Below, piece by piece: positions 1,810 to 26,459 of a stretch of 38,849 bases of DNA. The notes under the pieces are model-generated. The model made no database searches and was not told the origin of the DNA. It saw only the letters and a program-made list of their open reading frames with translations. The position numbers were made by a program, and so were the translations under genes. Source of the DNA: a virus. The number at the start of each line of letters is the position of its first letter. The first letter of the stretch is position 1. Where the stretch lies: IMG/VR virus record IMGVR_UViG_3300025574_000006, positions 1-38,849 of that record. One strand, given 5' to 3'.

Positions 1810-2258
1810 AACGGGACTTCCTCTGAATGCTTAGCCTTAACTTCTGCCGGGATCGTTCCAATCTGAGGAGCCGGAAGAACTGTGTATTCGGTTTCTAATC
1901 CACTCCCGACCGTTTTGATTCGGATGTCGGTCATGTGGATTGTGGATTGGCTTTCCTGCTGCATCTCGGCGATGGCTTTAATCTGGGAAGCGATAGACGC
2001 CCCGAATTCAAACTTCTTTTCTTTTTGCTCTTTGCGATCCCAAACCATAATTTGCCAGCGTTGTTTCGGTTTATCGCCTTCCATGCACAAATCACACTTC
2101 TCTTTCCCGAGACATTTAACCCGCTTCTTGTTCTGCCAGTGGATGACCTCTTTCTCTGGTTTTTGGCTCAAAATGTTGAAAGTAACCGTCTCCCCACTTT
2201 TCAATTTAAGATAGTCACTCGATCCACCGTCTACTTCCATGTCGCTATATCCGCTCAT
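1806..2258 (-). CDS. Phage single-stranded DNA-binding protein-like
   Basis: 150 residues. A beta-rich N-terminal region (DYLKLKSGETVTFNILS) is followed by a Cys cluster KCLGKEKCDLCMEGDKPKQR, which may bind zinc, a lysine-rich beta segment and an acidic tail ending SEEVPF. The ending resembles the C-terminal D/E-x-P-F tips of SSB proteins that recruit partners, and the Cys cluster recalls gp32-like phage proteins. Its ATG overlaps the exonuclease stop as ATGA, with AAAGGAG upstream. Location between an exonuclease and NinG fits a recombination role. The family call is from pattern, not a search. Confidence 0.65.
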   Translation of the reverse strand: MSGYSDMEVDGGSSDYLKLKSGETVTFNILSQKPEKEVIHWQNKKRVKCLGKEKCDLCMEGDKPKQRWQIMVWDRKEQKEKKFEFGASIASQIKAIAEMQQESQSTIHMTDIRIKTVGSGLETEYTVLPAPQIGTIPAEVKAKHSEEVPF

Positions 2259-3088
2259 TTTTGGCTCCTTTTGATAATTGTTGGGAAACTAAAAGCTTTT
2301 AGTGTAAATCCAGGGTTTCTGAAATCCCACATGGCCGAGGCATGTTTAAAGAACTCGTAATGTGGTTTTAGCTCCTCGGACGTCTTAAGCACAGAAGCGA
2401 AGCCTTCGATCCCTGATTTAACGCTGCTAGAAGTGTGCAGAACCAGCCCCCCTTTCGTTTTAAGGCCCGATAACTCTTCAAAGGCCACTTTGTATGCTGA
2501 TATCTGCGCCCAGGCTGAATCGCTGATCTGGGAGCCTGTTTTCAAGTCTCCGATGTAAATCCCGGTCTCTGGGATGATAAGTTTCTTTGAACCATTGACG
2601 TCATAGGTTCCTTTTTCGATCTCTAAGGCCATGTCCAGAGTCCCGGCGATCCCCTCTTTGATTGACCAAACCGTTTTTTCAGCCTCCACGATCTTGGGAT
2701 TGACCGTATCGAAGAACTTTTGGAGCTTAACCATCGCCAACATTTCGTCTTGATTCTGAAGGATGACAAAATAAGGGTTGGATTTCTGGTAGTCCTTAAT
2801 CTGATCGTCCGTATAGGTCGGGAACTGCGGGTTATTGTAGAGAACGATCCCGCCCATCGTATAAATGAAAAGAGCGTAGTGAATCCGTTTCCCACGATCC
2901 TGGGCCTCATGGAGTTTCTTCCGGGCTAGATCCCAGCCTTGATCGGCGTACCAGCGATACAGGAAAGGTTTATCCTCGATCCCGAGTTTTGTCGTGACGG
3001 AGGCTTGTTCGAAAATCGAACCATCTTTAAATTTGATCCGGTATCCTCTCTCGTCGAACCATAGCGATGTTTTTATCTCTTCGTCCAT
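2255..3088 (-). CDS. PD-(D/E)XK (RecB/Cas4-like) exonuclease
   Basis: About 277 residues from the ATG at 3088, chosen because GGAGGATAAG precedes it; ATGs at 3100 and a longer frame to 3130 lack such a site. Nuclease motifs are visible in order: the early RGKRIH, IVEAEKTVWS, GIAGTLDMALEI (the Asp of motif II), IYIGDLKTG (the D...LKTG form of motif III) and SAWAQISAYKVAFEEL (QxxxY motif). This is the RecB/lambda-exonuclease-type core, expected to degrade or resect DNA ends for recombination. It is first in the minus-strand recombination block, immediately after the terminator at 3150-3192. No convincing promoter was found in the short gap. Confidence 0.8.
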   Translation of the reverse strand: MDEEIKTSLWFDERGYRIKFKDGSIFEQASVTTKLGIEDKPFLYRWYADQGWDLARKKLHEAQDRGKRIHYALFIYTMGGIVLYNNPQFPTYTDDQIKDYQKSNPYFVILQNQDEMLAMVKLQKFFDTVNPKIVEAEKTVWSIKEGIAGTLDMALEIEKGTYDVNGSKKLIIPETGIYIGDLKTGSQISDSAWAQISAYKVAFEELSGLKTKGGLVLHTSSSVKSGIEGFASVLKTSEELKPHYEFFKHASAMWDFRNPGFTLKAFSFPTIIKRSQK

Positions 3089-3149
3089 CTTATCCTCCAT
3101 TGTTTGATTTATCCTGGGTATTCTTAACACTTAAAAACATGGAATGCAA

Positions 3150-3192
3150 GAAAAAAGATGCCTCCGGTTACCACGAGAGTAATAACCGGAGG
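3150..3192 (-). terminator. Intrinsic terminator of the structural operon
   Basis: A perfect 10-bp inverted repeat, CCTCCGGTTA at 3161-3170 and TAACCGGAGG at 3183-3192, encloses a 12-base loop. Read on the minus strand the stem is followed by CATCTTTTTTC, a U-tract. It lies after the last structural/lysis gene and before the exonuclease gene, so it separates the late and recombination transcription units. Confidence 0.85.
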
Positions 3193-3284
3193 CGGAGGGC
3201 CGAGGGGGATAAGGCCCCGGCTGTGTGGGGAGATGAGCCCACGGAGAGCGATTTATAACTATTTATATCAGGAACAGCGTATAC

Positions 3285-3470
3285 TTATTTAGATTTGATT
3301 CGCCACTTCTTTTCCGGGTCGTGATAAAACCAGGAATTATTCACGACCCAGGTATCCTTGCCTCCGACGATGATATGCGTTCTCGTTAAGACTATCCAAC
3401 CATCGGGGATCTCTAGTCTACTTAATTCCGGGTTGACTTGGTGCCAACTTCCCGAATAACCATCCTCCAC
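3285..3470 (-). CDS. Small hypothetical protein
   Basis: 61 residues from GTG at 3470, three bases after the stop of the holin-like gene. Trp-rich (SWHQ, DGWIVL, TWVVNNSWF, KKWRIK) and probably beta-structured. Last gene before the terminator. No family recognised. Confidence 0.6.
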   Translation of the reverse strand: MEDGYSGSWHQVNPELSRLEIPDGWIVLTRTHIIVGGKDTWVVNNSWFYHDPEKKWRIKSK

Positions 3471-3473
3471 ATT

Positions 3474-3824
3474 CTAGGCAGTAGGCGGAGTCGTTGAGAC
3501 TGTCGTGGTGGTTGTTAACCCCTCAATGCTACCGGGAATCCCGGGGATTGTTGGAAGCGCCGGGATTCCCGGGCCTTGGGGATTCTTCATCTTATTGACT
3601 TGACGGAGAATCATATATAGGGCCGTTAAGGATGTTACCGCCAGAAGCGCATAGTCGGGAGGGATGATCGAATAAAGAGCCCCGACAATAATCAAAAGCT
3701 CTAACACCACCTTGGCCACAAACTCCGACGAGAAATAACTGTGATTCATTCTATGATCCTCCTGTAAGTTTGTGATCGCACGATTCACTGCAAAGAGTAC
3801 TTTGATTTCTTTGAATAGGTTCAT
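3474..3824 (-). CDS. Two-helix membrane protein, holin-like
   Basis: 116 residues from 3824, or 91 residues from the ATG at 3749. Two hydrophobic stretches (about residues 36-55 and 58-75: VVLELLIIVGALYSII and YALLAVTSLTALYMIL) are followed by a basic RQVNKMKN and a Pro/Thr-rich tail. Size, topology and place among lysis-region genes suggest a holin; no sequence family was recognised. The inner ATG has AGGAGG upstream and is the stronger initiation site, so either one start is wrong or both are used. The longer start overlaps another possible small ORF (3751-3897). Confidence 0.65.
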   Translation of the reverse strand: MNLFKEIKVLFAVNRAITNLQEDHRMNHSYFSSEFVAKVVLELLIIVGALYSIIPPDYALLAVTSLTALYMILRQVNKMKNPQGPGIPALPTIPGIPGSIEGLTTTTTVSTTPPTA

Positions 3825-3897
3825 CTTTTACCTTTTTTGAGAACGTATTTGAAAAGTGGAAACTGATCTTGAAGAAGATATGTTTCAGGAATTTCAT
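3751..3897 (-). CDS. Possible 48-residue basic ORF
   Basis: It begins MKFLKHIFFKISFHFS; its ATG overlaps the stop of the upstream membrane gene as ATGA, and its stop lies just before the AGGAGG-driven ATG at 3749. The position fits a coupled gene, but the composition is poor and the frame competes with the long start of the holin-like gene, so only one of the two readings is likely to be right. Confidence 0.3.
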   Translation of the reverse strand: MKFLKHIFFKISFHFSNTFSKKVKDEPIQRNQSTLCSESCDHKLTGGS

Positions 3898-4142
3898 TTC
3901 GTCTGCCGCTCAATACGATTTAATTGACGTGAAATGTCCTCTAGTTGCTGCATCATGGCTGCTCTGTTTTCTCTAAGCTCTGCAAGCTGAGGTTTCAAAG
4001 CAGCCACATCGGACACCGTGGTTTCGACAGCATTTCTCAGAGTAACGATCTTGTCGGCAAAATTGAAAGCGTAAATCGTCATCCCTATGATGAACGTGAT
4101 GATCGCCATGTCTTTTCTTGCAAGCCATTTGTTACGGTTCAC
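3894..4142 (-). CDS. Membrane-anchored coiled-coil protein
   Basis: 82 residues from GTG at 4142, preceded by GGGAG. A single membrane segment (about residues 11-29, DMAIITFIIGMTIYAFNFA) is followed by a coiled coil rich in Ala, Leu, Glu and Arg to the end. The N-in, C-out arrangement resembles inner-membrane spanins or small holin-like accessory proteins. Directly coupled to the DUF5675 gene and the holin-like gene. Function is inferred from architecture and place only. Confidence 0.65.
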   Translation of the reverse strand: MNRNKWLARKDMAIITFIIGMTIYAFNFADKIVTLRNAVETTVSDVAALKPQLAELRENRAAMMQQLEDISRQLNRIERQTK

Positions 4143-4556
4143 TTATGCTCCCATATTCTTGATGTTTATAAATACTTTCTGCGTGTTCAATGCTTGATCG
4201 ATGACCGGGAAGATAATGTTGAAGGCGTCACGGCTATTGCTTACGCTATCAACATCTCTTGTGGTGCCTGGGAGGAGGCAATCATGTGTGTCCACGGGGA
4301 AATTCCCAGGATGGATCTCTACATATTCATGGCCCGGAATATTTCCTAACAAAGGGACCTTCATCCCAAAATGCGGCGAATCATAAAGCGTAATCTCGTA
4401 GCGACCCTCTGGGATCGCCACTATCCCTCGGGGATCTTTATCTCTACGAATGGTTGGCTCTAAAACAAAGCATGAAGGGTTAAATTTCTGCCCAATATAG
4501 AACTGAGAGATCGTGCTTTTGTCGGTGAACCAGCGTCTGAATGAATATATTTCCAT
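4143..4556 (-). CDS. DUF5675-family protein, lysis region
   Basis: 137 residues. The pattern CFVLEPTIR...IPEGRYEITLYDSPHFG...VPLLGNIPGHEYVEIHPGN...DTHDCLLPG matches the DUF5675 family as I recall it: a compact beta domain with conserved His-Pro-Gly-Asn and Cys-Leu-Pro-Gly, commonly encoded near phage lysis genes. Biochemical role is not established. Start ATG at 4556, two bases after the fibre stop. As no recognisable lysozyme, amidase or peptidase is present in the window, this protein is a candidate for involvement in cell-wall attack, which is speculation. Confidence 0.75.
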   Translation of the reverse strand: MEIYSFRRWFTDKSTISQFYIGQKFNPSCFVLEPTIRRDKDPRGIVAIPEGRYEITLYDSPHFGMKVPLLGNIPGHEYVEIHPGNFPVDTHDCLLPGTTRDVDSVSNSRDAFNIIFPVIDQALNTQKVFINIKNMGA

Positions 4557-4558
4557 GA

Positions 4559-7500
4559 TTAATTCTTATCATGCCCAACGCATTGGACATCAATATTACC
4601 GCTTAACCCTGTCTCAGTAATCACAACACCAGTATTTGAGGTTGTATAACTAAACGTATTGATAACACTTCCTGTTCCGGCAGTTATATTACAAGTTGGG
4701 GTGTTAATAAGAGGGTTTGCGAATGTGGCCGTGCAGCCATTCGCCCCAGAACCTGCCGTAATCGTGAACACCAAGCCGCCCCCTATAACGCTGGGACTTG
4801 CACCACAACTGGAAAGAGTCGGGCTCGATCCGTTTACATTCCAGTTGCCGTTGGTCTTAACAGTGAATGAACCGCCTCCAACCTGGAAAGAGCTTGTCGG
4901 ATTTACAATGGTAGCCGTCATTGTTGTGCCGTTCCAGGTATAGGTAGAACTTGTCCCCAACTGAGTTCCGTTCATGAAAACGACGCGGGTGTTTCCTTGG
5001 TTGAGAAGATTTATTTGGGATACGGCAATGGAAGAAATCGAAATAGCACTGGAAAATGTAGATATTGGATTGCTGAAAGAAACGATATTGGAACCATTAT
5101 TATCTACCAATGAAATTAGGGGCGTCGTGCGTGAAACAAGCAATCGACTAACTGGCGCGGATATGGCGTCATTTGACGCGACATATATTTGATAAGTCGA
5201 TCCAGTTAATTCTTCTAGCATGGAATCATTATTGGTAATGCTAGAAACGAAAGCTCGCTGCCAATCATTAGTACCATTTCCTGCATACATGTTTAAAACT
5301 GGAAAACCGGATGTAGCGGACAACTCGATTCGCCCCCCCGTAGAATTCCCGACAACAAATTTACCCGTAGAATTTCCTGTACTTGCTAAAAATCCGAAAG
5401 GAAAAGAAGCCGTTGAGGTTGCTGGGTATATAGAAGATCCACCACCACTGCTACTACTTCCTCCGCCAGTTGTTGAAGAAATTTCCAGAACCGATTCAGG
5501 GCATCCGTCGGTACTGCATGTTAGGCTCGCACTATTGAGAGCATCCTCTTGACCTTGCAAATAAAACGTATGCGAACCGGCACTTAGAGGAGCGGTTAAG
5601 AAAACGGTGCTTGCAGAAGCTCCCGATGCGGTACCACTTCCAGGGCCATATTGGACGATGCCATTTTTTGTCCCGCTGCCGAGATTTACACCATCAAGAA
5701 TAATTGTGAAATCACCCCAGCCCCCTGCAAAGCTGTCAATGACGTTTATGGTAAACGATATCTGCGCCCTATTATTAGCGGTTCCCACAACAAATGTGAG
5801 CGTTGATCCCGTAATTGTGGTGAATCCAGTGCTTAATGATTGCGATGTTGTTAATACCGTCGACGAAGAACCGAGGATCGCAGTACTTCCTCCGCCTCCG
5901 CCAGTTGCGGATATGGTTGTCATGGTGCCGCTGGGCGTCAATAAAATTCCTGAACCAGCAGTGAAAACACCCTGCAAGGTAACGGACGATTGATTGAGAG
6001 CAATATAGTTCGTTGTCCCCAGGGCTTTCGATGTGAATTGTGCCCCTTCAAATGAGATCGCCGCCGTTGGGCTTGTTACATTCGTCGTGAAGTTTGAAGC
6101 GGTTCCCGTTCCGACTGCTAAAGAAGATGAGCCCCCACCCGAACCTGCAATGATCTTTCCCGTTGAATCTGTGGCCAAAGAAGAAGCAGACAGGACTGTC
6201 CCGAGAACAACAGGAATGGTGAAAGAAGAATTGCCGATAGGATCGAATTGGACAAATGGTATTAATCCACTATCTTGAACCAAAGATATTTTTCTGGATG
6301 TTCGATCCAATAAAATTCTGGGTTGTGCTGTATACGTTCCTGATGTTGTAGTAGAAGCTAAAATCTGAAAAGATGAGCCATAATCGCCCCATTGATCTGC
6401 CAATTTTCCGTTTTCATATAAATTGTAGTAACCACCAGGAGGTCCAATATTAAATAAATTAAGAAATGGGCTTGATCCTGTTATATTTAAAGTTGACCCC
6501 ATTCCAAGATTTCCAGTAAGTGTTATGCTGCTCACCGAAGAATCGTATTGAAACCCACTATCCCCATAGAAAGAACCGGAACTATTTATCTGGACGTTTG
6601 AATTTGCTCCGCCAGGAGATGTACTAGCACCCCCAGCATTTGCCCACACTGGCCCATTCGCTCCATTGTTGGTCAAGACTTGCCCCGGAGTTCCACCTGT
6701 CGAAAAAGCAAGCTGAAAAGTCGGACTGGCTGAAATTTGGGTCATAACCTGGCCCGTGTTATTCATCGTAAGCGGAAGAGTCCAAAGCCACGAACCGGAA
6801 TCTGTAAAAGTGTTCCCCGGTCTAAATCCGACATACGAGCCAACCGTATTGGAGAATTTTAACGAACAGGTAGAGTAAAGAATCATGCCTCCACCGAAAG
6901 CACCACCAATGCGATTAAACCCTGCGATGTTTTCAAAGGCTGTATTTGCTCCATTGCGACCCGTAATATTGCAATGGTCACTATTGATACTTGGAACTTC
7001 AAATTTACCCCAGGAAGAGGTTCCACCATCCTGAGTTATATCGACAAATTCGAAATTTGGGTCTGGTGAATCGACTCGAATATCTCCATTTGAGTTACCG
7101 GCATTATTCCGAAAAATACGCATGTTGAAAGCATGATTGACGGTATTTGTGGCGATCAAAGTAAGCATACTTCCGCCACCCTGACTTTTCGTGGAATTGT
7201 CGTAAATGGTTACACCATTGCTCGTGGAATTGCTGACATCGAATAGATAGGCTGCTGCTGTTGTTTGGGGCGTGCTTCCGATATTCACACCGAAATTACC
7301 AGTGGCGTTGAAATAAGTTTTGCTGCTTGTGATTGTCATAAAGGGGCCAGCAAAAGTATTGGAACCCGTAAATGTTTGTGTGCTGGCTTTAAAAACATCG
7401 CCACCGCCCCCGGCTCCGCATGGGAACCCAGTAACAGTCAAAAGGCCATTCGTCCCGGTTTGCAAGCATTGTCCAGAAGTTAGGTTAGAAGACGCAAGCC

Positions 7501-21800: not shown

Positions 21801-23701
21801 TGGCCTGGAACCATGTTATTGGTTTGACTTGGCACGTTTAAAGTTTGGGCTGGCTGGGATGCTTGGCCTTGCGGTGCTCCTTGTTCTGGGGGCGGAGCCA
21901 TAGCAGGCATATCGAACTCATTCGTTTTCTTAATCCCGATCAAAGGCAGCATCTCTTTGAAAATCTTGCTGACATCGATGAAAGTGGCTTTCTGTTCAGG
22001 AAGCACACGCATCTGAACCAAAGAACCCGTAGCTTGGTTCGCAGCCGTCGCTCGATCCATCATCATCATGTATTGGTTAATCTTGGATTGTTTATTAACT
22101 GAGAAATTAACTTGTAAATCAAAATCGCCTTGAATGATTGAACGAACCGGAACTGACTTGTCCCAAATCAAAGGGCCGAAATATTTTCCTGCAATAGCCT
22201 TAATATAGTCTTCAGTTTCATAGGCTTGTTCGAGACGAAGGAGATAACGAAATACCGGCATCCATGCCGTATAGGCCAGATTTTTAATGACAAGTTCAAT
22301 TTTCTTGTTTGCATTTGTGAGTTGGTTTTGACTTTCTGTTGCAGACTCGGAGGTAGTATCTCCTCCTTGAAGTAATGGAGGCAGTCCCGTTTCGGCATAG
22401 TCATTATCCGTCCTCGCTTGTGTTTTTTGAAGAATGGCCGCCGAATTATTGCTAGGGAACATGGTCATTGCTTCATTGCCAGGCCCATCGCCAAGGACAT
22501 GGCCGCCAATTCTTTTTGTAGTTAATGCAAGCAAGTCTACGTTTGCATCTCGATTAATATAATTGGTTGGCCTTAAGTCACGGGCTACGGCTTCACGTTC
22601 TTGGTTACGTTGTGCATTGGTTTCTTTTTGAAGTGATTCGGTAATTTGAGGATAAGATTTCCCCTCTAAGCGGTGGGGTTCTGGATAGGCCTCTCCCAGA
22701 ATTATCGGAGGACGATTGTGCTCGAAAGGGGAAAAACGGTAAGGTAAATCGTTCTCGACCCATCCACGGCCAACAGTAGTTGGACGAAGCATATCGCCGA
22801 GGAGAATATAGGAACCTGATTTTAATTTCCCATCTTCATCGGGTAGAAAATCCCAGATCTCAAATACCCAGACTTCTTCCTGGTCTTGAACCTCGGTTTC
22901 GTCGTTGAAAAGTGTTTGATAGTCCTGCCGACGTTGATATTTGACCACGTCATTGATCTGATCGTCCATTGATTCAGAACCGACCTCATCAATGTTTTTA
23001 TATCCAAGAAGTCTTAATTCGCTGCGTGTCTTTTTGTAGCGATGACACATCGGATACTTAAAATAGTTCTTCCAGGTCGCACGCTTAGAAAAGAAAAGGT
23101 CTTCGGGAGGGATAGAATCGATTCTGGGCTCGAAATATTTAATCTGTTTCTGTTTGGAATCGACATAGGTCTTATAGGGCGTTCCGTCTTCAAGTTCTTC
23201 CGTTTTCTCTTTCTGCACAGTGACGGTTTCGGTTTCGACTTGAGGGTAGACCTTATAGATACAAATCATGTTGCGAACTGCATTGACTGAACCTTCATAG
23301 GCTTCTTGATACCAGTCAATCGGATGCCCGTTCAAGCGATGGTTCATGATCGTCTTCACCAAGCGGATGTGATCAGTGGGAATCTCTTTGTTGACTTTGA
23401 TATCGACTATTTCATCGGCATCGCTGAACATAGAAGCCAGAATATCCACGACAATACGCTGAGTATTAACATAGGTTTTAGGAATGAAGAGTTTAGGGAC
23501 GCCTAGAATGTCGGAATATTTACGTTCGTCGGTTTGGAATCGACCGTCGTACATATCCATATCTTTTCGCATACGTTCGTAGAAAAGTTGGTGGCCGGTC
23601 TTGGCATTGTCGTAAAGAGCGGTGCCTTGACTGAGCAAAAATCCATCGGTTACTTGCGATTTCTTGGTGATGCGAATTTCTGAGGTAGAGGAATTAAGCA
23701 A
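21797..23701 (-). CDS. Portal protein
   Basis: 634 residues. The start is TTG at 23701, overlapping the terminase stop, with GGAG eight bases upstream; no ATG occurs in frame for 40 codons. Recognisable regions are RMRKDMDMYDGRF (N-terminal helices), a long wing with PPEDLFFSKRATWKNYFKYP, ENDLPYRFSPFEHNRPPIIL followed by AYPEPHRLEGKSYPQITESL, the stem helix LQKETNAQRNQEREAVARDL, and a Gln/Pro-rich C-terminus. The dodecameric portal forms the DNA entry channel. Position after terL and before scaffold/capsid fits. Confidence 0.85.
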   Translation of the reverse strand: MLNSSTSEIRITKKSQVTDGFLLSQGTALYDNAKTGHQLFYERMRKDMDMYDGRFQTDERKYSDILGVPKLFIPKTYVNTQRIVVDILASMFSDADEIVDIKVNKEIPTDHIRLVKTIMNHRLNGHPIDWYQEAYEGSVNAVRNMICIYKVYPQVETETVTVQKEKTEELEDGTPYKTYVDSKQKQIKYFEPRIDSIPPEDLFFSKRATWKNYFKYPMCHRYKKTRSELRLLGYKNIDEVGSESMDDQINDVVKYQRRQDYQTLFNDETEVQDQEEVWVFEIWDFLPDEDGKLKSGSYILLGDMLRPTTVGRGWVENDLPYRFSPFEHNRPPIILGEAYPEPHRLEGKSYPQITESLQKETNAQRNQEREAVARDLRPTNYINRDANVDLLALTTKRIGGHVLGDGPGNEAMTMFPSNNSAAILQKTQARTDNDYAETGLPPLLQGGDTTSESATESQNQLTNANKKIELVIKNLAYTAWMPVFRYLLRLEQAYETEDYIKAIAGKYFGPLIWDKSVPVRSIIQGDFDLQVNFSVNKQSKINQYMMMMDRATAANQATGSLVQMRVLPEQKATFIDVSKIFKEMLPLIGIKKTNEFDMPAMAPPPEQGAPQGQASQPAQTLNVPSQTNNMVPGQ

Positions 23702-26297
23702 GCATCATCTCCGCATCTGGAATACCGATATCAACGGTCGCCGTTGTATGAGGACGCCAAGAGAAACGGCGTTGAAGGATGTAGCGAACACAAGCATGGT
23801 GGTCGTGGATACCTTCAGCAATTGAGTCTTTGGGGCCTTTTTTCTCTTCACCTAGTTGGGTGTCACGCTGCAAGGTCTTGAAAGTCTTGATCAAAAGTTT
23901 GTTCTCGGGACGGTTGAATATAAAGAGGCGAGGTTTACCAGTACGAGGATGGATTTTCAGTCTTTCCTTCATATTGGAAATACCCGCTGCGATACTCCCG
24001 GGGAATTTCTCGGCTTTGGTCAGGTTCGGAACGGCGTTCTTGCCACGTTTGAGCATCTGAAACACGTTTAAGTTGTCATGGATGGTCAAAGACGAGTCTG
24101 AAGACGGATCGGCTACGGCTTTAACGATTCGATGGTCTAAAGTCAGTCGTCTAAGGTCGAGTTTCATCTCTTCGACCGTCACACCTTTCTTGTAGCAGGT
24201 ATCGATATAGAAATTGTCTTCCCGGTCGGTGAAACACATCACTGCACAGGAATCTTTGACCATGTGAGGGTCGATGCCGAGAAAACCCATGTATTTCGCA
24301 TAGGGACAGCTTTCGATGTGCTGAGAACGGCCAGATTTGGCCTGACAATCGCATTCTGTGTTAAAAGGTTCGATGACATGAAGAGAATGTTGAAACAACT
24401 TGCCATAGACTAGCCCTGAAAGGCTCACAAACTCGCCCAGAAGCCGCATCTTTAGTTCTTCGTAGCTTTCCATCTCTTTTAGGATTTCACGCAGCACCTT
24501 GATGTTTGCGTGCGGATTACAAACCGAGGCGATCTGGAACCAATCGACGTTGTTGCCGTCGGTATCAGTGCCACGAGTAAACAAATCATATGTCCAACTC
24601 AAGCCTTTGGTCGGGGTCATGCAGAAGAGGACGTCAAGGCTTGACGCCGTGGTGAAACGCATCAGATTTTCTTTATAGACTTCATGGTCTGGTTCTTCGT
24701 CAAAGACGAGCATGTGCCTCGGGGGGCCTTGGAAAGTACCCAAATCTTGCTTGTTACTCATAAACTCGATGGTTCCGAGTAACTGTTTTGTAACCGGATC
24801 AATTAAGCGGAGGGTTTGTTCACCGGAGGAATAGCTTTGTTCCCAGCTTCCGCCAATGAGATGTTCTTTTGGTGCCCATTTACGGTAAGTGGGGATTAAG
24901 TTTCTTAGAACTCCGTTCTGGTAGTCCTCGCCGATGACCCGGACGTGTTGAGGGCCTTTGCGTTCTAGTCGGTGTTTGGGGTATTCGAACTTGTAGTCTT
25001 TATGGGTCGGGTCGAATACAAAGGGTAAACTGCCAGTAGCTTTAATGAGAGCTTCAATACATCCGGTTGTTGTTTTGGAATTATGCGATACTGTTTCTCC
25101 TAGGAGATAATTGTGATATAGAGGAACTTCGAAGTCGTAGTATATATTGGTTCCAATAAATGATACGCTTTCAATTGTTGTACAAGGAGGACTTAATGAA
25201 ATCAGGGCCGAAACCAGGCGCGCTTCACTTTCGATGGAAGGGTGGTATTCATAAAACAAAAACGGGTTATGTTCAAGTCTACACCCCTGGTCATCCCTAT
25301 GCACGAAAGCCCACTCCTTATGTTTGGGAGCACCGCCTTGTAATGGAGAAATCACTTGGACGATATCTCCTGCCAGTTGAAGTTGTCCACCACAAGAATG
25401 GGAATAAATCCGATAACCGTATCGAGAACCTAGAGCTTTTTCAGAGAAACTCAGATCATCTTCGACATGAATTAAGCGGTCGAGTCCCCAAATGGTCTGA
25501 AGAAGGCTATCTTCGAATGAAAGAGGCGGCGAGAAGTAAGGGCGATTTATTACGAGGGACGAAGAAACGCGTTCTTTCCGAGGAACAACTCCGCTTTTAT
25601 TTAGAAAAATGCGGGTGGATTGTTTTGGCCGTGGCTCGCCACCTTGAAACCCATCCTGAAAATGTCCTTTATTGGGTGAAACAGTATTCGATTCATTTCC
25701 ATCCGGGGAAAGCGTCACAACAGATGACCCCACTTGGAGTTCGTGAACTTTTTTCCAGCCCTCCGGCGTTAAAAGCCTATGAGCAGTCGTGCAGTCAATT
25801 TGTTTCCCGTTTGAAAACTTTACGCGATAAAGTGGCGCAACCCCTTTTTGAAAGGGAGTATTGGCTCTGGCTACTATCCTCTTACCCAGGCTCCAAGCGT
25901 ATACGAAAAACGGTTCGTGAATATCTGCAACGCGACGTTCCCCACCAAGAACTGGATCATAAATAAGGGAGTCTCCGCTAATACAGCTTTGGTTTCCTCC
26001 TGATGCGCCTCGTATAGAAGCATTTGACAGATGAACATCAATGGCCCCATGTAACTTTTGCGGGATGTCTTCTTCTTTGAGGAATTCTTTAAGGAACGCA
26101 CGTCGTTCTCCTACGATATCACCATTAACAGGGGCATAATACCAGAACGGGTTAGCTGCCTTATTACGGGCTTCCAATTCGTCTAATGCTTTTAACGACT
26201 CTTGCATCTCGGCTAAGGCTTTGGCCTTTTGCTCAGGTGTAAGAAGTCTAGGATCTTTACGTAAGATCTTGTTTGTTTCTTTACTAAGCTGGATCAA
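23694..26297 (-). CDS. terL: Terminase large subunit, interrupted in the P-loop by an intein
   Basis: 867 residues as translated, about 565 after protein splicing. The N-extein (1-104) ends GASGGNQS and the C-extein begins SKTTTG, together forming the Walker A loop GGNQSSKTT. The Walker B is HMLVFDEEP, followed by FCMTPTKG as coupling motif. The nuclease domain shows GIDPHMVKDS, VADPSSDSS and DSIAEGIHDHHA with acidic residues for metal binding. The enzyme packages DNA through the portal, whose gene follows with overlap. The start is TTG at 26297 with AAAGG upstream; the next ATG is at 26207 without a ribosome site. The intein and an antisense HNH gene are listed separately. Confidence 0.9.
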   Translation of the reverse strand: MIQLSKETNKILRKDPRLLTPEQKAKALAEMQESLKALDELEARNKAANPFWYYAPVNGDIVGERRAFLKEFLKEEDIPQKLHGAIDVHLSNASIRGASGGNQSCISGDSLIYDPVLGGERRVADIHEPFFVYAWSLGKRIVARANTPFQKGVAPLYRVKFSNGKQIDCTTAHRLLTPEGWKKVHELQVGSSVVTLSPDGNESNTVSPNKGHFQDGFQGGEPRPKQSTRIFLNKSGVVPRKERVSSSLVINRPYFSPPLSFEDSLLQTIWGLDRLIHVEDDLSFSEKALGSRYGYRIYSHSCGGQLQLAGDIVQVISPLQGGAPKHKEWAFVHRDDQGCRLEHNPFLFYEYHPSIESEARLVSALISLSPPCTTIESVSFIGTNIYYDFEVPLYHNYLLGETVSHNSKTTTGCIEALIKATGSLPFVFDPTHKDYKFEYPKHRLERKGPQHVRVIGEDYQNGVLRNLIPTYRKWAPKEHLIGGSWEQSYSSGEQTLRLIDPVTKQLLGTIEFMSNKQDLGTFQGPPRHMLVFDEEPDHEVYKENLMRFTTASSLDVLFCMTPTKGLSWTYDLFTRGTDTDGNNVDWFQIASVCNPHANIKVLREILKEMESYEELKMRLLGEFVSLSGLVYGKLFQHSLHVIEPFNTECDCQAKSGRSQHIESCPYAKYMGFLGIDPHMVKDSCAVMCFTDREDNFYIDTCYKKGVTVEEMKLDLRRLTLDHRIVKAVADPSSDSSLTIHDNLNVFQMLKRGKNAVPNLTKAEKFPGSIAAGISNMKERLKIHPRTGKPRLFIFNRPENKLLIKTFKTLQRDTQLGEEKKGPKDSIAEGIHDHHACVRYILQRRFSWRPHTTATVDIGIPDAEMMLA
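25080..25985 (-). mobile_element. Intein in terL Walker A (302 residues)
   Basis: Residues 105-406 of the precursor. Block A is CISGDSLIYD with catalytic Cys1; block B is CTTAHRLLTPEGW with the Thr-x-x-His pair, followed by VHELQVGSSVV. Near the end, block F is YYDFEVPLYHNYLLG and block G is ETVSHN with the penultimate His and terminal Asn, followed by Ser as the first C-extein residue. All residues needed for standard class 1 splicing are present. The linker between blocks B and F (about residues 195-372) shows no LAGLIDADG or in-frame HNH motif; it is the reverse reading of the plus-strand HNH gene. Confidence 0.9.
25196..25966 (+). CDS. HNH endonuclease encoded antisense within the intein
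   Basis: 256 residues from the ATG at 25196, preceded by AAGGAGG at ideal spacing; an in-frame ATG at 25160 lacks one. Residues 43-90 are an HNH domain: VWEHRLVMEKSLGRYLLP, then VEVVHHKNGNKSDNRIENLE and LFQRNSDHLRHE. Residues about 127-165 (LSEEQLRFYLEKCGWIVLAV through HPENVLYWVKQY) look like a helix-turn-helix. These domains correspond on the opposite strand to the intein linker between splicing blocks B and F. The remaining about 85 residues are antisense to blocks A and B and may be only read-through. Probable role: homing nuclease for the intein, cutting uninterrupted terL. A TATATATT sequence at 25141-25148 might be part of a promoter. Confidence 0.85.
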   Translation: MKSGPKPGALHFRWKGGIHKTKTGYVQVYTPGHPYARKPTPYVWEHRLVMEKSLGRYLLPVEVVHHKNGNKSDNRIENLELFQRNSDHLRHELSGRVPKWSEEGYLRMKEAARSKGDLLRGTKKRVLSEEQLRFYLEKCGWIVLAVARHLETHPENVLYWVKQYSIHFHPGKASQQMTPLGVRELFSSPPALKAYEQSCSQFVSRLKTLRDKVAQPLFEREYWLWLLSSYPGSKRIRKTVREYLQRDVPHQELDHK

Positions 26298-26363
26298 CGG
26301 TTGCCTTTACTGGCTTTCCCGTTGACCTTGCGGTGTTGGGGCTACTTCATTAAAACGTTTGAA

Positions 26364-26459
26364 TTAAGAAGGCTTGTTTAAGATCGCCTTTACTTCATCA
26401 GTGATACCCAGGCTTCGGATAAGGCTGATAATAATTCTAACGTTGGTCGAGTGTTCCAT
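26364..26459 (-). CDS. 31-residue microprotein upstream of terL
   Basis: The frame begins at ATG 26459, overlapping the stop of the preceding small gene as TAATG, and ends at TAA 26364. The product MEHSTNVRIIISLIRSLGIT followed by DEVKAILNKPS is helical. Support is the exact overlap and sensible composition; nothing is known of function. Confidence 0.45.
   Translation of the reverse strand: MEHSTNVRIIISLIRSLGITDEVKAILNKPS

Follow-up and report, generated by a model that had tools for sequence, protein, structure and literature searches.

The endonuclease of an intein is generally described as a domain in the intein's own reading frame, so that making the nuclease depends on host-gene expression and on splicing. 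A terminase gene in the viral record IMGVR_UViG_3300025574_000006 (IMG/VR; the 38,849-nt stretch analysed here, positions 1 to 38,849 of the record, is referred to as the window) raises the question of whether a homing intein can instead carry its endonuclease as a separate gene on the opposite strand. This arrangement had been proposed for the locus in a reading of the DNA made without database searches (the sequence-only reading).

The host gene, terL, occupies 23694-26297 on the minus strand as an uninterrupted ORF and codes for the terminase large subunit (TerL), as indicated by a PHROG terminase large subunit match (E 5.6e-14) and by intein-free homologues, to which the predicted spliced product of 565 aa is 88% identical over 565 aa. 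The 302-aa intein (25080-25985, minus strand) is inserted in the Walker A motif with the junctions GGNQS/C...HN/SKTTTG (slashes mark the junctions), and corresponds to a 906-nt insert relative to empty alleles. Its splicing blocks, all on the minus strand, were assigned from intein alignments: block A (C1 ISGDSLIYDPVL; 25947-25985), in which C1 is invariant; block B (CTTAH; 25773-25814), in which H69 is invariant; block F (YYDFEVPLYHNYL; 25104-25148), in which D284 and Y293 are invariant; and block G (GETVSHN, then the +1 Ser; 25080-25103). The hallmarks of class 1 inteins, namely C1, T66xxH69 in block B, D284 in block F, the terminal HN302 and the +1 Ser, are present, and C1, H69, D284 and N302 are invariant across 28 aligned inteins. 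The Pfam Intein_splicing family (PF14890) matched the intein with an E value of 2e-8 and 34.5 bits, slightly below the cut-off of 35.8. In the AlphaFold2 model, residues 1-95 and 265-302 form a Hint fold with a pLDDT of about 97. Foldseek matched this model to the Ssp DnaB mini-intein (E 3e-8); the ordered part also matches RecA mini-inteins, and DnaB mini-inteins are the nearest structural relatives of the Hint part. Residues 97-262, the linker, are disordered, with pLDDT mostly below 50. The linker (25194-25697, minus strand) lies opposite the HNH gene described below and has no fold in its own frame. Neither an endonuclease nor any other domain was found in this frame by domain searches or in the AlphaFold2 model, and the intein alignment contains no invariant sense-frame linker residues. 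The claim of a terL intein with all its splicing blocks but no endonuclease in its own frame thus held, on the basis of the motifs, PF14890 and the Hint model. By sequence, the insert is a complete class-1-type (Hint) intein; the splicing activity itself is inferred. A self-splicing RNA intron of group I or II was also considered and rejected, as an Rfam scan of 23600-26400 gave no group I or II intron match and the insert keeps the terL frame, with its Hint motifs intact.

On the plus strand, wholly within the intein, an ORF at 25196-25966 codes for a 256-aa HNH endonuclease, identified by a match to HNH_3 (PF13392; E 1.5e-11), by matches to PHROG HNH families (E down to 7e-26) and by its relatives. 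A Shine-Dalgarno (SD) sequence, AAGGAGG, precedes it at 25184-25190 (plus strand) with a spacing of 5. The HNH_3 catalytic core (EHRLVME...EVVHHKNGNKSDNRIENLELF...HL...W.EEG; 25235-25507, plus strand) was modelled confidently (pLDDT 87-98), and H66, N74 and N78 do not vary among 31 antisense HNH proteins, nor does much of the motif around them. The best fold match of the model in the PDB was I-HmuI, and this was weak (E 1.1). The ORF therefore encodes an HNH_3-type nuclease with an intact catalytic motif, as its sequence establishes; cleavage is inferred. Residues 1-168 of the protein are encoded opposite the linker that separates blocks B and F (25697-25194). The sequence-only reading was upheld on the position of the gene, its SD sequence and its containment in the intein, and on the placement of the HNH part between blocks B and F, but its claim of a helix-turn-helix (HTH) part was weakened. 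In this copy the HTH-like segment is C-terminal to the HNH core (25580-25684, plus strand) and rests on weak support, namely a Terminase_5 HTH match with an E value of 0.14 and three helices at a pLDDT of about 70. Most antisense-HNH relatives have an HTH-like region at the N-terminus, where this copy has none.

The sequence-only reading had seen a single case; the arrangement is in fact a widespread family. A first scan of IMG/VR with the HNH protein as query returned 62 loci, and the five best HNH relatives were all antisense to an intein. An alignment of the HNH proteins from those five loci served as query for a second IMG/VR scan, from which the best 80 of 546 relatives were kept; intein splicing blocks were found on the opposite strand in all 80. 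A census over 198 loci, which include a few contigs fetched twice, found both N- and C-terminal blocks opposite the HNH gene in 91, one block only in L139, none in 90 and a sense-strand block in one locus. The Amona locus (L182) was scored 'none' despite its antisense arrangement because the script took plus-strand HNH genes only. In the antisense-HNH loci the intein is a single unbroken ORF from block A to block G, and the antisense phase was identical in 86 of 86 measured cases; Pectobacterium phage Taid, L187 and phage PHS3 agree. The 79 complete inteins formed 29 clusters at 60% identity, hence at least 29 intein families. Their host sites are mostly TerL P-loops (GGNR/SGKT and variants). 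At L005 the host gene is a DNA polymerase clamp loader (PHROG E 8.5e-58), with the insertion again at the P-loop. An assembly artefact was rejected, since the arrangement is seen in independent metagenomes and in nine isolate genomes. Several searches were negative. A scan of GTDB genomes yielded 24 HNH relatives, none of which lay antisense to an intein according to the profiles applied; the terL intein protein as a single query against viral contigs gave no match; the L005 intein had no match in phages; and the L095 intein had only distant matches in phages, in mycobacteriophage portal genes.

Other intein arrangements were observed in the same material. The TerL ORFs of L003 (560-3712, minus strand) and L004 (476-3745, minus strand) contain a second, different intein-like insert near the C-terminus (CFVAGT... 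to ...N/CD) with no obvious antisense HNH gene. A very long TerL-like ORF at L110 (1203-4910, minus strand) has a second Hint-domain match downstream of its antisense-HNH intein. By contrast, a portal-like ORF at L058 (1-4539, plus strand) contains successive inteins with in-frame (sense) HNH domains, which is the conventional arrangement.

The nine cultured phages with an antisense-HNH intein are eight Pectobacterium/Dickeya phages (Taid, Koroua, Amona, Sabo, Pappous, Ymer, Abuela and Dickeya phage Setonix) and Pseudoalteromonas phage PHS3. Taid and its seven relatives share a 288-aa TerL intein (AGFG/C...HHN/TGKS) with an antisense HNH gene, in a TerL that is annotated as 'hypothetical protein' or is missing from the annotation. 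Intein-free relatives of TerL from the Pectobacterium phages are common, and that of E. coli phage KW1E_UTAR is 72% identical. In PHS3 (L279, accession no. KX912252.1), positions 2393-4516 form a continuous ORF with a complete intein at WGGAG/SGKS. The depositors annotated the HNH gene on the opposite strand, where it is antisense within the intein; their TerL coding sequence is truncated, beginning at 3344, close to the end of the intein.

Selection on the two strands can be separated by codon position, as position 3 of the HNH codons coincides with intein position 2, and HNH position 2 with intein position 3. Substitutions were counted in 25 disjoint pairs from six families. At intein positions 1, 2 and 3 they numbered 503, 251 and 1947 in the exteins, 133, 95 and 428 in blocks A-B, and 19, 10 and 124 in blocks F-G, against 88, 365 and 84 in the linker opposite the HNH core. 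The counts thus flip in the linker: conservation follows the TerL and intein frame in the exteins and splicing blocks, and the HNH frame in the linker. The cultured pair Taid/Amona shows a similar trend in small numbers (5/16/7 for the whole HNH gene, 12/4/138 for the exteins).

The openness of both frames was tested by shuffling synonymous codons without changing the HNH protein or its codon usage. In this record the intein frame remained free of stops throughout the HNH core in 2% of such shuffles. Across the 29 intein families it is open in all 29, against 1.7 expected under shuffling; this is not a strict probability, because the families share descent. The dual-strand open frames are therefore not due to chance and are under selection, and the sequence-only claim that both strands remain open for about 770 bases held. 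HNH codons can usually leave open only one of the three antisense phases, phase 0, and in most cases they close the other two. The shared phase is thus partly a constraint; it was rejected as proof of a single origin, and common origin rests on the HNH tree. The sequence-only reading had predicted that blocks A, B, F and G would be conserved while the linker would be conserved only as the antisense HNH gene; this held by the codon-position rates in the six families, the avoidance of stops and the disorder of the linker. A search for the pattern it had named as refuting, in which the sense frame of the linker is conserved and the HNH frame is disrupted, found no such case.

That the element moves is supported by empty alleles, by discordant divergence of inteins and exteins, and by scattered occupancy, all of which bear on the earlier claim of a new design of homing element. 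Uninterrupted homologues of this record's terL were found at L171-L180. Those of L171-L174 share 88% protein identity with it, and about 1698 nt align straight across the site of the 906-nt insert; L171 and L173 align across the site without any gap. In two pairs (L083/L094 and L091/L105), inteins 93-94% identical lie within terL genes only 71-75% identical. At one well-sampled site, defined by a single TerL type (80 genes with identities of at least 86%), 54 alleles are empty, 20 carry the antisense-HNH intein and six carry a mini-intein. The six mini-inteins (L203, L218, L219, L221, L248 and L259) are 136 aa long and lie upstream of the TerL C-extein at exactly the site of the antisense-HNH intein; both linker and HNH gene are missing, a joint absence that is expected if the linker has no role other than to house the gene. 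The terL tree requires 15 changes of the antisense-HNH state, ten of them forced by well-supported branches, against 17.6 for shuffled labels, so that occupancy is near-random on this tree. Such occupancy fits an active homing element, an inference from sequence with cleavage and target untested. In the pair formed by an occupied allele (L200) and an empty one (L201), the two sides of the site differ: 3029 nt on one are 99.97% identical, but identity on the other is 91-94%; a join made in metagenomic assembly is not fully excluded. No third-position identity gradient indicative of co-conversion was found near the insertion sites in the discordant pairs. In principle, ordinary recombination between terL genes could still account for mobility, despite the near-random occupancy seen on the tree.

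In the HNH tree the antisense-intein HNH proteins form essentially one clade (34 of 35 members; SH-aLRT 98 with one outsider). The HNH gene of L187, antisense in the intein of a 1542-aa ORF without an assigned function (1844-6469, minus strand), falls outside the main clade, and a second origin is therefore possible. Expression of the gene from the plus strand is inferred, and is the weakest link of the homing model. A promoter scan found no plus-strand sigma-70-like promoter upstream of the HNH gene. An SD sequence of at least 5 nt stands at the expected place before the start in 13 of 31 family representatives, compared with 4 of 62 control frames, an enrichment that supports the SD assignment in this record. 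Because no upstream promoter is recognizable and only about 40% of the families have such an SD sequence, expression remains unproven. The earlier claim that the nuclease is made independently of splicing and cuts intein-less terL likewise remains an inference.

The reading best supported is that this is a mobile (homing) intein in which the endonuclease is a separate gene on the opposite strand, at the place where bifunctional inteins hold theirs. This is considered very likely (probability about 0.85), with splicing, plus-strand expression, cleavage and target all inferred. Sequence evidence establishes that the splicing blocks are intact, that the HNH gene is intact and under selection, that the frames on both strands are open under selection, that the arrangement recurs, and that empty alleles exist, with presence and absence scattered. 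In the proposed mechanism, the minus strand would give a TerL precursor containing the intein, from which the Hint domain (residues 1-95 and 265-302) would excise itself and so restore the ATPase P-loop, the linker being passive filler. The plus strand would give a free HNH nuclease, predicted to bind P-loop coding sequences that lack the intein in co-infecting phages and to cleave them, and repair would then copy the entire intein with its nuclease gene into the empty allele. A bolder reading, likely on present evidence, is that these elements form a widespread and undescribed class of mobile intein, in which members of one HNH clade are always antisense and in one fixed phase, splicing and cutting belong to separate products and the nuclease would be expressed independently of the host gene; here too expression and cutting are inferred.

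Three other explanations were weighed. The one that survives best, though it is unlikely, holds that the HNH gene is a free-standing selfish nuclease for which the linker is merely a safe landing site, with its true target elsewhere and no homing of the intein. In its favour, genes of the HNH_3 superfamily are common as free-standing phage genes, and there are no cleavage data. Against it, the antisense-intein HNH proteins are essentially a single clade, HNH gene and linker are present or absent jointly at one TerL site, the host sites are P-loops almost throughout, that of the clamp loader included, and intein presence is scattered. The second explanation, that general homologous recombination between terL genes spreads the intein without homing by a nuclease and that the HNH gene is kept to exclude intein-less competitors, is less likely still. 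Known roles of HNH enzymes include the exclusion of competing phages, and the identity pattern of L200/L201 is what a single crossover would give. However, closely similar inteins in divergent terL genes, with no gradient at the site, are easier to explain with targeted cleavage, and exclusion and homing can coexist. The third, a functional sense-frame linker domain with a decaying or accidental antisense HNH ORF, is all but excluded: although the linker is open in the sense frame in every case, it is already contradicted by fastest change at intein position 2, the wobble position of the HNH gene, by linker pLDDT below 50 without a domain match, by the six same-site mini-inteins without a linker and by the invariance of the HNH catalytic residues.

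Among known systems, the element can be compared with bifunctional inteins (class 1 Hint inteins with a nested in-frame endonuclease, such as PI-SceI, including HNH-type forms), whose endonuclease domains are nested within the protein at a single conserved position (PMC6801210). The likenesses are the Hint splicing domain, the position of the endonuclease between blocks B and F, and insertion at the P-loop of a conserved gene that has empty and occupied alleles. The terL intein nevertheless fails their defining feature, an endonuclease in the frame of the intein; here the opposite strand encodes it as a protein in its own right, with a separate start and, in many cases, a separate SD sequence. 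Nuclear rDNA group I introns with antisense homing endonuclease genes (HEGs), for example I-DsqI in Dsq.L2066 and Dir.S956-2 (PMC9548176), are alike in being self-splicing elements with a nuclease gene on the strand opposite the host gene. They are RNA introns of eukaryotic rDNA, however, and their His-Cys box nuclease lies in a peripheral non-coding RNA segment, whereas the strand opposite the terL HNH gene must itself encode the translated host precursor.

The ShiLan domain is a hidden out-of-frame HNH in phage methylases, read from an alternate frame of an insertion in which no splicing domain was found (PMC11855218). It resembles the terL element in being a phage HNH hidden in an insertion that is open in the host frame, with a scattered, homing-like distribution, but it uses an alternate frame and is not an intein, in contrast to an intact Hint domain with an opposite-strand HNH gene. 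The words 'antisense' and 'opposite' do not occur in the main text of that paper. A DNA methylase with a same-strand out-of-frame HNH ORF inside it, resembling a hidden HNH of the ShiLan type, was observed in Cylindrospermopsis phage Cr-LKS3 (L170, 2501-4351, plus strand). A further comparison is the split intein of a fractured gene, whose two parts are separated by a free-standing endonuclease gene. There too the endonuclease is a separate protein associated with an intein, but host gene and intein are physically split, whereas in terL both are continuous and the nuclease gene overlaps them antisense. The open-access literature searched gave no description of an intein whose endonuclease gene is antisense; elements with antisense HEGs were found there only among group I introns, and the nearest precedents are these rDNA introns and the out-of-frame ShiLan HNH; other preprints and subscription journals were outside that scope. 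The arrangement is thus provisionally regarded as undescribed.

For annotation, the consequence is that TerL appears as a hypothetical protein in the Pectobacterium phages or is cut short in PHS3, and searches limited to in-frame endonucleases would call antisense-HNH elements degenerate inteins. The locus also offers a clean natural example of genes that overlap extensively in antisense, where codon positions reveal the selection acting on each strand. For the biology of the family, placing the two functions on opposite strands would uncouple the nuclease from host-gene expression and splicing, independent expression being inferred. As empty, antisense-HNH and mini-intein alleles all occur at a single TerL site, the gain and loss of nucleases by mobile elements become directly testable.
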